The notes under the pieces are model-generated. The model saw only the letters and a list, made by a program, of their open reading frames with translations, was not told the DNA's origin and ran no database searches. A DNA stretch of 25,390 nt from positions 1 through 25,390 of the IMG/VR virus record IMGVR_UViG_3300031857_001254. The stretch is one strand, 5' to 3'. This document shows, piece by piece, positions 596 to 24,460 of this stretch (position 1 is its first letter; each line of letters opens with the position of its first letter). The stretch comes from a virus. The position numbers were made by a program, and so were the translations under genes.

Positions 596-1276
596 TTAAT
601 ATCCAAATGCTTCAATTGTATGTTTAAATGGATTACCTTCGATATTTTTAACTAAGTCCAGCATTTCTTGTGTAAGTTCTCTTACTTCAACCTGAGCATG
701 TTCGCTATTGCGTAGTTGTTGGAAGTGTGCAAAACTTCTCCAGTTAAACATAATATCCATTGTGATTTGTGAATTGAATGTTTTAAAGAATCTAGCAGAC
801 TCTTTTGCTCTTTTTCTACCTAAGATGGGTGTTAAATCAGACAAACATTCGTGATAGAGAGCGTTACCTAAATCAGTATAAGATTTTAATGCTTCAAACC
901 AACTATTGATATTACCATCGTTATCATAAAAAAACTCATTGGCGTGACCCTGAGAAATTTCAATTCCTTTCCAATCTTTAGGTAGATACGTCTTATCTTC
1001 CTTCAACTCTTTATAACGAGCACTTTCACCATTAACACTTACACCTATTCGGTGCTTCAATACATGAATATGTGTTGCTTGATCGACTGTAACTAGAAAA
1101 TGTAAGCTAGATTTTTCAAAAGGAGTGTGATGACCTTCTTTTGCTAACATTGTTAATAATTTAGGTACACGTTCTAATTTTTCAGGTGTCAATTCACGCG
1201 AGGTAGATGTCCACGCTGAACAAGCGTGTGTTAAATCATCACCATAGTAACCAAGTAATTCTACTTTATTGTTCAT
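596..1276 (-). CDS. thyX: Flavin-dependent thymidylate synthase ThyX
   Basis: ThyX makes dTMP from dUMP using methylene-tetrahydrofolate, FAD and NADPH, supplying thymidine for phage DNA synthesis. The 226-residue length is normal for the family. Visible hallmarks are the HHTPFE segment (residues 49-54), the signature region KHRIGVSVNGESARY (74-88), and a C-terminal RSFAHFQQLRNSEHAQVEVREL segment matching the conserved helix with the AQ-E-R pattern. The signature differs from the textbook RHRX7S: the first Arg is Lys, and eight rather than seven residues separate the HR from the Ser. The gene sits in a run of small leftward genes; its stop is one base from the next start. The start at 1276 follows an A/T-rich leader. 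Identification is firm; activity with the variant signature is presumed. Confidence 0.95.
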   Translation of the reverse strand: MNNKVELLGYYGDDLTHACSAWTSTSRELTPEKLERVPKLLTMLAKEGHHTPFEKSSLHFLVTVDQATHIHVLKHRIGVSVNGESARYKELKEDKTYLPKDWKGIEISQGHANEFFYDNDGNINSWFEALKSYTDLGNALYHECLSDLTPILGRKRAKESARFFKTFNSQITMDIMFNWRSFAHFQQLRNSEHAQVEVRELTQEMLDLVKNIEGNPFKHTIEAFGY

Positions 1277-1544: not shown

Positions 1545-1769
1545 TTAATCGATATATTCAAATTCAGATTCAAGTAATTTAATTCTACTCCCATCATCAA
1601 GTTCTACCCATTTAAATCTAGAATCAAGATAATAATAACCTAACATACCATTATAATTTTTATGATTGTTAGTAATCTTAATTCGCTTTCTAAATGTATA
1701 AATTGGTTTATGATAAACTGATGTAATTTCCCACCCGTCTGGTGTTTTATCTCCAATTTTATAATCCAT
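1545..1769 (-). CDS. Hypothetical protein, 74 residues
   Basis: The product begins MDYKIGDKTPDGWEITSVYH and ends in an acidic tail (LLESEFEYID). The pattern of short hydrophobic strands with Gly and Asp turns (YTFRKRIKIT, GMLGYYYL, FKWVELDDGSRIKL) suggests a small beta-barrel or SH3-like fold, but this is only an impression. The start follows TTAAATAAT, an A/T-rich leader with no Shine-Dalgarno sequence. It lies 17 bases after the preceding gene and its stop touches the ATG of the next. No known family is recognised. Confidence 0.7.
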   Translation of the reverse strand: MDYKIGDKTPDGWEITSVYHKPIYTFRKRIKITNNHKNYNGMLGYYYLDSRFKWVELDDGSRIKLLESEFEYID

Positions 1770-1786: not shown

Positions 1787-2227
1787 TTAGTAGGTTCCAT
1801 GTTCAATTCTACCAATTTCGTTTATAATTTCTTCAGGTTTCATATCAATGACCCGACCACCATTTGCTTTAGAATACGGTGTCGTACTTAATAACCATTC
1901 ATTAAGTTCTTTTTTATTACCGAATGTATCAATACCCATCTCAAGAATTTTTGGGTTTTGTTCTAAAAATACAGATGTTTCACTCATATCAAAATAACGT
2001 TTAATTTTTTTTATATCATTAGGATTAATAATCATTGAATCAAAATCACCATATCTTGATTTATATCCAAAAATATATTTTATTGCAACACCAATTCGTT
2101 TAAAAAAGTTACGATGTTGTTGTAAGTGCGGCATAAAATGAACATCATTAAATTCTTCATCATACCAAAATGCGTATGTATGTTCAAGTGAACCACATTC
2201 ACAAATAAAAATTTCTGTTTTTTCCAT
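1787..2227 (-). CDS. Phage N-terminal domain fused to MbcA/ParS/Xre (DUF2384)-like domain
   Basis: This 146-residue protein appears to have two parts. Residues 1-79 hold a CxC motif (FICECGSLEH), aromatic and His-rich sequence, and FFKRIGVAIKYIFGYKSRYGDFD; this resembles a small phage protein type that I know only as hypothetical. Residues 86-146 resemble the C-terminal toxin-binding domain of Xre/MbcA/ParS antitoxins: FGNKKELNEWLLSTTP, then GGR at 123-125, an acidic helix, and the closing GRIEHGTY, which is highly typical. In cellular systems that domain normally follows an HTH domain and binds RES-family NAD-degrading toxins. Here no HTH is visible and no toxin gene lies nearby. I infer a possible phage-encoded antitoxin mimic; the domain call comes from reading motifs only. 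Confidence 0.75.
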   Translation of the reverse strand: MEKTEIFICECGSLEHTYAFWYDEEFNDVHFMPHLQQHRNFFKRIGVAIKYIFGYKSRYGDFDSMIINPNDIKKIKRYFDMSETSVFLEQNPKILEMGIDTFGNKKELNEWLLSTTPYSKANGGRVIDMKPEEIINEIGRIEHGTY

Positions 2228-4351: not shown

Positions 4352-5929
4352 ATGGAATTTTCTTTTTTCACAACAGATAATAAATCGGGTTATAAAACAA
4401 GAGAAGGTTGGTTTTCTAAAAATCATCCAGAAGTTTATGATGAAATTATTAGTTATTCTTCTAAAATAGATTTAAACCTTTCTTTCAAAGAAAAAATTTG
4501 GTTTTATTTTAACCAATTATCTGAAAGACCAAAATGTGTAACATGTTCTAAAGAACTTAAATTTAGAGAACGATTCGATAATCCATACGGAGAATTTTGT
4601 TCATTAATTTGTATTAATACAAATAAAGATGAAATGCTTAAACGACAAAAAAATACCTTCAATGAAAAGTATGGAATTGATTTTTATCCTCAACACCAAG
4701 ACTTTGTAAAGAAACAAAAACAAACAAAATTAGAACGTTATGGTGATGAAAATTTTGTTAATGCTGAAAAAATGCTAAAAACAAAATTATTAAAATATGG
4801 TAGAGAAAATATTAGTAACTCTAAAAAATATAAAGAAACATGTATTAAAAAATACGGTATAGATAATTTTGCAAAAACAACTGAATTTAAAAACAAAATT
4901 CATCAAAAATATAGAGATTTATATCCAAATTATAATATAATCAATATTGATGGTACACAATTAACTGTTTTTTGTGAAAAATGTGGTGATAATTATGAAA
5001 TTCATAAACAAGTTTTTTATGAAAGAATTCGTGATAACAATATTGTCTGCACAAATTGTAATAAACTTGGTCAATGTTTCATTTCAAGCAAGGAACAAGA
5101 AATTAATGATTTTGTAAGAAGTTTAAATATTGAAACAATTCAAACATTTAAAACAAAAGACAAAACTGAAATCGACATTTTTGTACCATCAAAAAACTTA
5201 GGGATTGAGTTAAATGGTGTTTATTGGCACAACGAACTCTTTAAAGATAAGAATTTTCATTTAAGCAAAACAAAAAGTGCTGAAAATGATGGAATTGAAT
5301 TGCTTCACATATTTGAGGATGAATGGAATGGTAAAAAAGAAATTGTTAAATCTATAATTAAAAATAGATTAGGATTAGTTGATGAAAAAATCTATGCTAG
5401 AAAATGTTACATAAAAGAATTAACCTCAAAGGTTACTAGTGATTTTTTAAATGAAAATCATATTCAAGGTGAAACTAAATCATTAGTAAAATTAGGTTTA
5501 TTTAATGGTGAAAAATTAGTTTCAATTATGACCTTTTCAAAAGGTAGAATTATAATGGGTGGAAAAGACGATGAATGGGAGTTGGTTAGATTTTGTAATA
5601 TTTTAAATACAAATGTTATCGGAGCGGCATCAAAATTATTAAATTATTTTATAAAAAACTATAATCCAAAGAAAATTGTGTCTTATTCAGATATTAGACT
5701 TTTTAATGGTAGTTTATATGAAAAAATAGGATTTACAAGAATATCACAATCACCACCAAGTTATTGGTATGTTATTAATGGTATTAGGCATTATCGTTTT
5801 AATTTTAGGAAATCCATTTTAATTAAAGAAGGTTTTGATTCAAATAAAACAGAACATCAAATAATGTTAGATAGGAGTATCTATAGAATTTATGACTGTG
5901 GTGCGATAAGATGGGAATTAAACTATTGA
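4352..5929 (+). CDS. Free-standing homing endonuclease, Vsr-like (EDxHD) type
   Basis: This 525-residue multidomain protein has an N-terminal Cys pair set (CVTC...FCSLIC, about residues 62-87), then about four degenerate repeats of around 20 residues each opening with K/RYG (from residue 106 to 190), which look like DNA-binding modules. A second zinc-ribbon-like CxxC...CxxC follows (about 209-237). The nuclease core is about 245-335: SSKEQEI, TEIDIFVP, GIELNGVYWHNE and HIFEDEW, the Glu/Asp/His pattern of Vsr-like EDxHD homing enzymes. The C-terminal 370-480 region (KLGLFNGEKLVSIMTF, VIGAASKLLNYF, LYEKIGF) resembles a GNAT-type fold. It sits between the complete tail tube and gp26-like genes with no disrupted exon, so it is a free-standing mobile gene. 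DNA cleavage is inferred from the motifs. Confidence 0.85.
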   Translation: MEFSFFTTDNKSGYKTREGWFSKNHPEVYDEIISYSSKIDLNLSFKEKIWFYFNQLSERPKCVTCSKELKFRERFDNPYGEFCSLICINTNKDEMLKRQKNTFNEKYGIDFYPQHQDFVKKQKQTKLERYGDENFVNAEKMLKTKLLKYGRENISNSKKYKETCIKKYGIDNFAKTTEFKNKIHQKYRDLYPNYNIINIDGTQLTVFCEKCGDNYEIHKQVFYERIRDNNIVCTNCNKLGQCFISSKEQEINDFVRSLNIETIQTFKTKDKTEIDIFVPSKNLGIELNGVYWHNELFKDKNFHLSKTKSAENDGIELLHIFEDEWNGKKEIVKSIIKNRLGLVDEKIYARKCYIKELTSKVTSDFLNENHIQGETKSLVKLGLFNGEKLVSIMTFSKGRIIMGGKDDEWELVRFCNILNTNVIGAASKLLNYFIKNYNPKKIVSYSDIRLFNGSLYEKIGFTRISQSPPSYWYVINGIRHYRFNFRKSILIKEGFDSNKTEHQIMLDRSIYRIYDCGAIRWELNY

Positions 5930-22465: not shown

Positions 22466-22480
22466 ATGATATTTATGGTT

Positions 22481-23197
22481 ATGAAAAAGATTAAATTAAC
22501 AGAATCAGATTTATATAGGATTGTTAGAAAGGTTCTTCTTGAGCAAGAGGAAGAAAATAACAGAAGAATTTTTAATGAGAATCCAGAATATTTTAAAACG
22601 ATTCTTAAAAATGTATTTAAAAATGATTCTAAGAAATTAACAAGGTTTTTTAATAAACAATACGATAAGGTTATTATTAATGGAAGTTTGAATTTAGAAG
22701 GAGCACCAATTCAATCCTTACCGGATAATCTTTATGTTGGGGAAAATTTGTATTTAAGTGAAACACCAATTCAATCCTTACCGGATAATCTTTATGTTGG
22801 GGGGGAGTTAGATTTATCTTATTGTGAAGAAATTGAAACTTTACCTGAAACTCTTGAAGTTAAGGGTAATATTGATTTATCCTATTCGTCAATAAAATAT
22901 TTACCCGATAACTTTAAAGTACCAAAAAACCTATTTTTAGATTATTCTAAATTAGAACATTTACCGGATAATCTCACGGTTGGAAATAATTTAATAGTAA
23001 GGAGCACACTTATAACAAAACTACCAAATAATTTAAAAGTTGGTGGTAAATTAAATATCCGCAATACAGAGGTGGAAGAATTACCTGATGATTTAGAAGT
23101 AAAATCTCTTATTTTAATAGATTTTACACCATTGTCTTATAACTTAGATTTACAAAAGAAATACAAGGAAAAAGGTTTTATACTATATACCAATTAA
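22481..23197 (+). CDS. Leucine-rich-repeat protein with possible capsid-targeting N-terminus
   Basis: Counted from ATG 22481 the protein has 238 residues (an ATG at 22466 would add five and overlaps the octamer-like TATTTATG). The N-terminus, MKKIKLTESDLYRIVRKVLL then E21, is an amphipathic basic helix ending LLE, which fits the I/L-x-E cleavage rule of T4 prohead protease and capsid-targeting peptides. A helical segment follows (about 22-65). Residues about 66-218 are seven repeats of about 20-21 residues with the pattern G-LxL--T-I--LPDNL-V, a LPX-type bacterial leucine-rich repeat. Such repeats bind proteins. No enzyme motif is seen. Two adjacent repeats share a 39-base exact DNA repeat. 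Function is unknown; a packaged internal protein is an inference. Confidence 0.8.
   Translation: MKKIKLTESDLYRIVRKVLLEQEEENNRRIFNENPEYFKTILKNVFKNDSKKLTRFFNKQYDKVIINGSLNLEGAPIQSLPDNLYVGENLYLSETPIQSLPDNLYVGGELDLSYCEEIETLPETLEVKGNIDLSYSSIKYLPDNFKVPKNLFLDYSKLEHLPDNLTVGNNLIVRSTLITKLPNNLKVGGKLNIRNTEVEELPDDLEVKSLILIDFTPLSYNLDLQKKYKEKGFILYTN
22704..22802 (+). repeat. Near-perfect 60-base tandem repeat inside the LRR gene
   Basis: Bases 22704-22742 and 22764-22802 are identical (39 bases, 60 apart), encoding two copies of PIQSLPDNLYVG. Neighbouring repeats have diverged much more, so this pair is probably the newest duplication. Confidence 0.85.
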
Positions 23198-24301: not shown

Positions 24302-24460
24302 ATGGGAAGAAAGAAAATAACTAACGAAGAAAAAAAACAAAGTATTTCTATTGCTCTGAAACCGGAGTTATTAGAATATTTTCGCGGACTCCATATTAAT
24401 CTTTCTTCTCTAATAAATAAATTATTAGAGGATTATAAAAATGGAAAAGAAAATATGTAA
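24302..24460 (+). CDS. Small ribbon-helix-helix (Arc/CopG-type) DNA-binding protein
   Basis: The 52-residue protein has the ribbon-helix-helix layout: basic N-terminus (GRKKITNEEKK), a strand QSISIAL, helix A (KPELLEYFRGL), and helix B beginning LSSLINKLLEDY, with the S-L-I-N/K-L-L pattern typical of the fold. Such proteins bind DNA as dimers and often repress their own operon. Its last 20 bases overlap the start of the downstream endonuclease, so the two are probably translated together. I infer that it could regulate that endonuclease. The gene is too short for routine ORF cut-offs and can be missed. Confidence 0.8.
   Translation: MGRKKITNEEKKQSISIALKPELLEYFRGLHINLSSLINKLLEDYKNGKENM

Follow-up and report, generated by a model that had tools for sequence, protein, structure and literature searches.

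A phage protein that joins a small phage-family domain to a divergent toxin-binding domain of RES-partner antitoxins, with a plausible role in silencing host RES toxins

RES-Xre modules are common in bacteria, where their natural role is open and a role in defence is disputed; to our knowledge, no RES toxin is an established phage defence. No PADLOC model matches a RES/Xre pair. Earlier work on the NatR-NatT module has shown that the C-terminal helix of the antitoxin extends into the active-site groove of the toxin, and that, of more than 50 phages, none was affected by NatT of P. aeruginosa (PMC11535050). Phage proteins that silence host toxins are known from other systems: AdfB of ICP1 is an antitoxin mimic against DarT (PMC11481870), Dmd of T4 is an antitoxin mimic against RnlA (PMC9503650) and is paired with LsoA as well, and TifA of T4 acts on ToxN. 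These proteins act on RNases or on a DNA ADP-ribosylating toxin and have been tested experimentally, whereas we infer the role of the protein described here, for which the same logic is proposed. In the literature searched we found no phage mimic acting against RES toxins, and the parts of the fusion reported below are known ones in a new arrangement.

The fusion gene lies in a window of 25,390 nucleotides (the whole stretch of DNA that was analysed), whose source is a large uncultured phage. The initial annotation had called an open reading frame at 1787-2227 ending in GRIEHGTY, giving no strand; we recovered this frame on the minus strand, with GRIEHGTY at its stop (Table 1). It is part of a minus-strand cluster of small genes that includes ThyX and is adjoined by plus-strand structural and replication genes, among them gp32 (PF08804) and a RecA-like gene. 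The idea that this cluster is a probable early operon was not borne out, since a scan for promoters and terminators returned sites no more frequently than chance. Two IMG/VR records, one of them 256,029 bp in length, matched the window at 100% identity across a compared 8.2 kb, and a third, short record agreed with it over 2.2 kb. The fusion gene is present in three IMG/VR contigs (L001-L003), the DNA being 100% identical where compared, and from these sequences the three matching records and the window look like one phage. No isolate phage similar at the DNA level was found; the closest isolate relatives of the N-terminal domain are Flavobacterium phages, and the phage DNA polymerase is closest to those of Salinibacter phages (23-24%).

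Table 1. Coordinates of the fusion gene, its two domains and neighbouring genes in the window.
Feature	Position	Strand	Remarks
Fusion gene	1787..2227	-	Whole ORF including stop, 146 aa, ATG to TAG
phrog_12660-family phage domain, residues 1-80	1988..2227	-	C9, C11, H16, KYIFGYK 50-56, G60
Xre/MbcA/ParS (DUF2384) toxin-binding domain, residues ~82-146	1790..1984	-	Profiles and predicted fold
ThyX thymidylate synthase, neighbour in same strand cluster	596..1276	-	PF02511, E 7.6e-28
Downstream neighbour, 74 aa, no assigned function	1545..1769	-	AAAATTAAATAATATG start context, as in fusion gene
Upstream neighbour, 81 aa, small phage protein	2359..2604	-	Weak PHROG matches

Profile searches and structure prediction together confirmed that residues ~82-146 form a genuine though divergent toxin-binding domain of the Xre/MbcA/ParS (DUF2384) type, with a resemblance beyond chance. 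The initial annotation had proposed a C-terminus of this type and named PF09722 as the profile to search; the type was upheld by wider profiles, and the literal Pfam match was not. PF09722 gave no match to the fusion protein, even at an E-value of 10 with the domain alone; it matches the bacterial relatives at 1e-15 to 1e-16, and a Pseudomonas orphan with the short loop reaches 24.4 bits, narrowly missing the cut-off of 24.5. The NCBIfam model NF049845 aligned residues 93-146 with its positions 55-111 of 112, in register with the model end (E 3.3e-4, a match that falls below the curated cut-off of 90 bits for that model). A blind tblastn search with residues 79-146 against 72,556 plasmids returned nine weak matches, eight of them annotated as DUF2384/Xre-MbcA-ParS, and an annotated RES gene adjoins four of the six that were inspected. 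Furthermore, a profile of bacterial relatives that leaves out the phage protein scored it at 41.2 bits (E 3.7e-11), whereas the highest score was 6.2 bits among 2000 shuffles and 7.4 bits among 3614 viral ORFs; the bacterial set was collected with a seed alignment containing the phage sequence, a mild bias from which the NF049845 search is free. The comparison by hhalign gave 98.3% over residues 92-146, the best-aligned stretch of the region. Because a joint MAFFT alignment of both domains was misaligned, the N- and C-terminal parts were aligned and folded separately.

The best-kept part of the phage domain is its last helix (residues 131-142), which bears I-G-R-I-E-H-G (138-144); the phage copy and 13 bacterial copies all carry I-G-R-x-E-H-G without variation. 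The domain has neither the usual "RP" proline nor five loop residues, and these losses suggest that its surface may have drifted. When set beside the RES-Xre antitoxins VPA0769, ParS, MbcA and NatR, the phage protein is alike in the fold and sequence of the toxin-binding domain and in the terminal helix (GRxEHG); it differs in its shorter loop, its missing RP proline, the lack of an HTH and of a RES partner gene, and the phage domain joined to it.

The predicted fold of the C-terminal domain is that of RES antitoxins, MbcA among them, as had been anticipated from the sequence. The model of the domain alone (pLDDT 83, pTM 0.72, with pLDDT >90 over most helices) matched 8gug (VPA0769; Z 7.4), 6d0h (ParS; Z 6.1, 57 residues, 2.2 Å) and 6fkg (MbcA; Z 5.8), all three of them RES antitoxins in the toxin-bound state, and every other row had Z <2. 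Foldseek placed the domain model on 8gug_B with a probability of 0.97. Values of Z <8 would be weak taken alone; we regard the match as convincing because the list consists of RES antitoxins only and because the sequence agrees. The full-length AF2 model (pLDDT 84.1, pTM 0.71), built from an alignment that held relatives of the N-terminal domain only and zero DUF2384 sequences, again resembled the VPA0769 antitoxin more than any other structure; this match spans residues 89-146 (Z 5.0, 55 residues, 3.2 Å), and the next unrelated row stood at Z 2.8. Foldseek scores of this model against the PDB were weak, with 8gug at rank 3 (E 2.2, probability 0.23).

The N-terminal part had been described as a different, CxC-containing phage domain, and this description stands. 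Residues 3-80 match phrog_12660 in a PHROG profile search (E 1.2e-6), as do 37 of 38 aligned family members, and the CxC is C9-E-C11. The invariant columns of the family alignment are C9, C11, H16, L35, K50, Y51, F53, G54, Y55, K56 and G60, and the fusion protein carries the CxC, H, KYIFGYK and G60 pattern. Residues 1 to ~80 belong to a widespread stand-alone phage family with a putative Cys/His-containing domain. Members such as the Flavobacterium Muminvirus gp16-like proteins, Sinorhizobium phiM12 gp365 and Klebsiella RaK2 ORF182 resemble residues 1-80 and share the invariant Cys, His and Gly positions. A viral scan for the domain found 80 loci, three of which are copies of this phage; unlike the fusion protein, the ORFs at the other 77 (50-113 aa) end right after the domain, so that the C-terminal extension occurs in this phage only. 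The label "virion structural protein" on some members is confined to RefSeq, the GenBank copies being annotated as hypothetical. Searches with the full-length model revealed no clear relative of the N-terminal domain among solved or predicted structures other than its own family (phiN3, probability 0.99).

A neighbourhood count around 48 of these loci revealed no constant gene partner. One gene family lies near the phrog_12660 gene in 7 of the 48 non-redundant loci, including L038:4275-4679, and a scan of one member identified it as a cREC (cyclic-phosphate processing receiver, PF20274) protein; the cREC family is tied to ADP-ribose/RNA-repair processing. In phiM12, RaK2 and Atu_ph07, a 64-aa gene follows the N-domain gene (L006:4285-4479, L007:4309-4503 and L008:3320-3514); the three proteins are identical in length, yet not visibly alike.

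A complete RES-Xre module has an N-terminal Xre-like HTH and an adjacent RES gene, and the phage locus has neither, in agreement with what had been read from the sequence at first. The Pfam search found no HTH in the fusion protein, whose N-terminus is phrog_12660 instead, and RES (PF08808) was absent from the window, from a 35,961-bp record and from the 256,029-bp record. The fusion protein and its neighbours received no anti-defence label from Pfam, PHROG or PADLOC. At the sensitivities used, neither IMG/VR nor 50,697 phage records nor PHROGs yielded a further viral relative of the antitoxin domain; this absence is not absolute, since a survey reports RES-HTH pairs in phages (PMC9503650). 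Matches to tail proteins of Bordetella phages (E 6) were rejected as noise.

In bacteria, the closest relatives of the domain accompany RES toxins: of the 16 loci that a genome scan yielded, 11 encode antitoxins followed directly by a RES-like ORF, and the two best-placed Bacteroidota relatives, both examined, directly precede a RES gene. The remaining five (L099-L101, L103 and L104) are HTH-less and have no RES-like ORF downstream. The antitoxin at L101 has decayed, its frame being interrupted by a stop, and the other four are HTH-less, stand-alone DUF2384 proteins of Vibrio, Alginatibacterium and Pseudomonas with no adjacent RES. Two Pseudomonas species and a plasmid carry the same 114-aa HTH-less form. 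The Pseudomonas orphan WP_020189848 (114 aa) shares with the phage protein the lack of an HTH and of an adjacent RES gene, the same five-residue loop gap and 38% identity; it differs in being bacterial and in its unrelated N-terminal part.

By sequence, model and analogy, we put at roughly one in two the probability that the C-terminal domain is an antitoxin mimic, binding a RES toxin of the host and silencing it. Such a silencing role is plausible because the phage domain has retained the toxin-inserting helix at its C-terminus and because RES genes were found in 95 of 296 sampled Bacteroidota genomes. The initial annotation had offered this role as conjecture, and we likewise infer the binding, the target and the benefit to the phage; what the analyses show is the two-part architecture, the homology, the fold and the lack of a RES gene in the contig. 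Under this proposal, a common small phage protein of the phrog_12660 family would have been fused to an HTH-less toxin-binding domain captured from an antitoxin that partners RES. In the infected cell, this domain would bind a host RES NAD+-phosphorylase or ADP-ribosylating toxin, its last helix inserting into the RES active-site groove as the NatR helix does in NatR-NatT, and would keep the toxin from release when phage takeover stops renewal of the host antitoxin. The fusion protein, having no HTH, would not repress the toxin operon, and the N-terminal domain may retain its usual phage role or act as a carrier. Weighed against the mimic were the sub-cut-off Pfam and NCBIfam scores, the lost RP proline and loop, the NatT result, the restriction of the domain to one phage lineage, HTH-less orphans in genomes that yielded no RES, and a contig in which searches for NAMPT, NADAR and Macro genes gave nothing. 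We are more tentative about the phage having evolved this protein as a dedicated inhibitor of RES NAD+-phosphorylase toxins in its hosts, a reading suggested by sequence and model that we place somewhat short of even odds.

Among the alternatives, the one that survives best is that the fold has been re-used as a module for dimerisation or for docking a partner other than RES, either a phage protein or another host protein, with no antitoxin role. The lost RP proline and loop residues would suit such a module, as would the N-terminal domain being a widespread phage family with a role of its own whose only copy in the 256-kb contig is this one, a second having been sought and not found. HTH-less orphans of V. 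splendidus and P. lundensis in genomes where no RES was found also point this way, and they mean that a DUF2384 domain alone is no proof of a RES partner. Against this, the residues kept best, I-G-R-x-E-H-G, sit at the helix that in the known complex reaches into the active site of the toxin, and a scaffold would not need them; we consider re-use unlikely.

The extension occurs in one phage lineage only and thus offers no selection signal for the C-terminal domain, and its absence from the 77 other loci would fit a recent, functionless capture, in which read-through has extended the N-terminal gene into an antitoxin remnant. Decayed antitoxins do occur in bacteria, as at L101. In the phage, however, the frame is open across the whole domain, the fold is well predicted, and the GC content is phage-like (0.318 compared to 0.294 for the window). 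Neutral inserts tend to disappear from compact phage genomes, which further argues against this explanation, and we judge it improbable.

A mimic of an antitoxin need not be protective, since NatR both inhibits NatT and acts as its co-toxin, and also stabilises it (PMC11535050). The fusion protein could by this precedent displace the host antitoxin and stabilise or activate RES to the benefit of the phage, for example by stopping host growth or excluding other phages. Loss of NAD would harm phage replication, however, and neither a NAMPT-family salvage gene nor NADAR or Macro genes (NAD-salvage/ADP-ribose) were found in the 256-kb contig, so that there is no sign of the phage countering NAD loss otherwise; we give activation very little credence. 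That residues 82-146 merely resemble DUF2384 by chance, as the missing PF09722 match might suggest, is scarcely tenable given NF049845, tblastn, the bacterial profile, hhalign and the fold matches.

If the protein is indeed a dedicated inhibitor of RES toxins, this would imply that RES-Xre modules act against phages in the hosts of this phage, a role not known for them to date. The toxin-binding half alone, with neither toxin nor HTH, in a phage would be natural evidence that a RES toxin is an obstacle, and the protein is small and cloneable, which makes the question of RES-Xre defence directly testable.

Several other genes were of separate note. An HNH/homing endonuclease-like gene lies among the structural genes (window 4352-5929, plus strand; phrog_3339, E 9e-118; DUF7487). 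A 52-aa protein (window 24302-24460, plus strand) matched the CcdA antitoxin family at 24.6 bits (Pfam cut-off 22.4); no toxin was evident, and it may simply be a small ribbon-helix-helix protein. In addition, two repeat proteins (window 22466-23197 and L117:11962-13080, both on the plus strand) have a similar start, MKKIKLTESDLYRI, and carry repeats like TPIQSLPDNLHVGGNLDL, which are leucine-rich-like.
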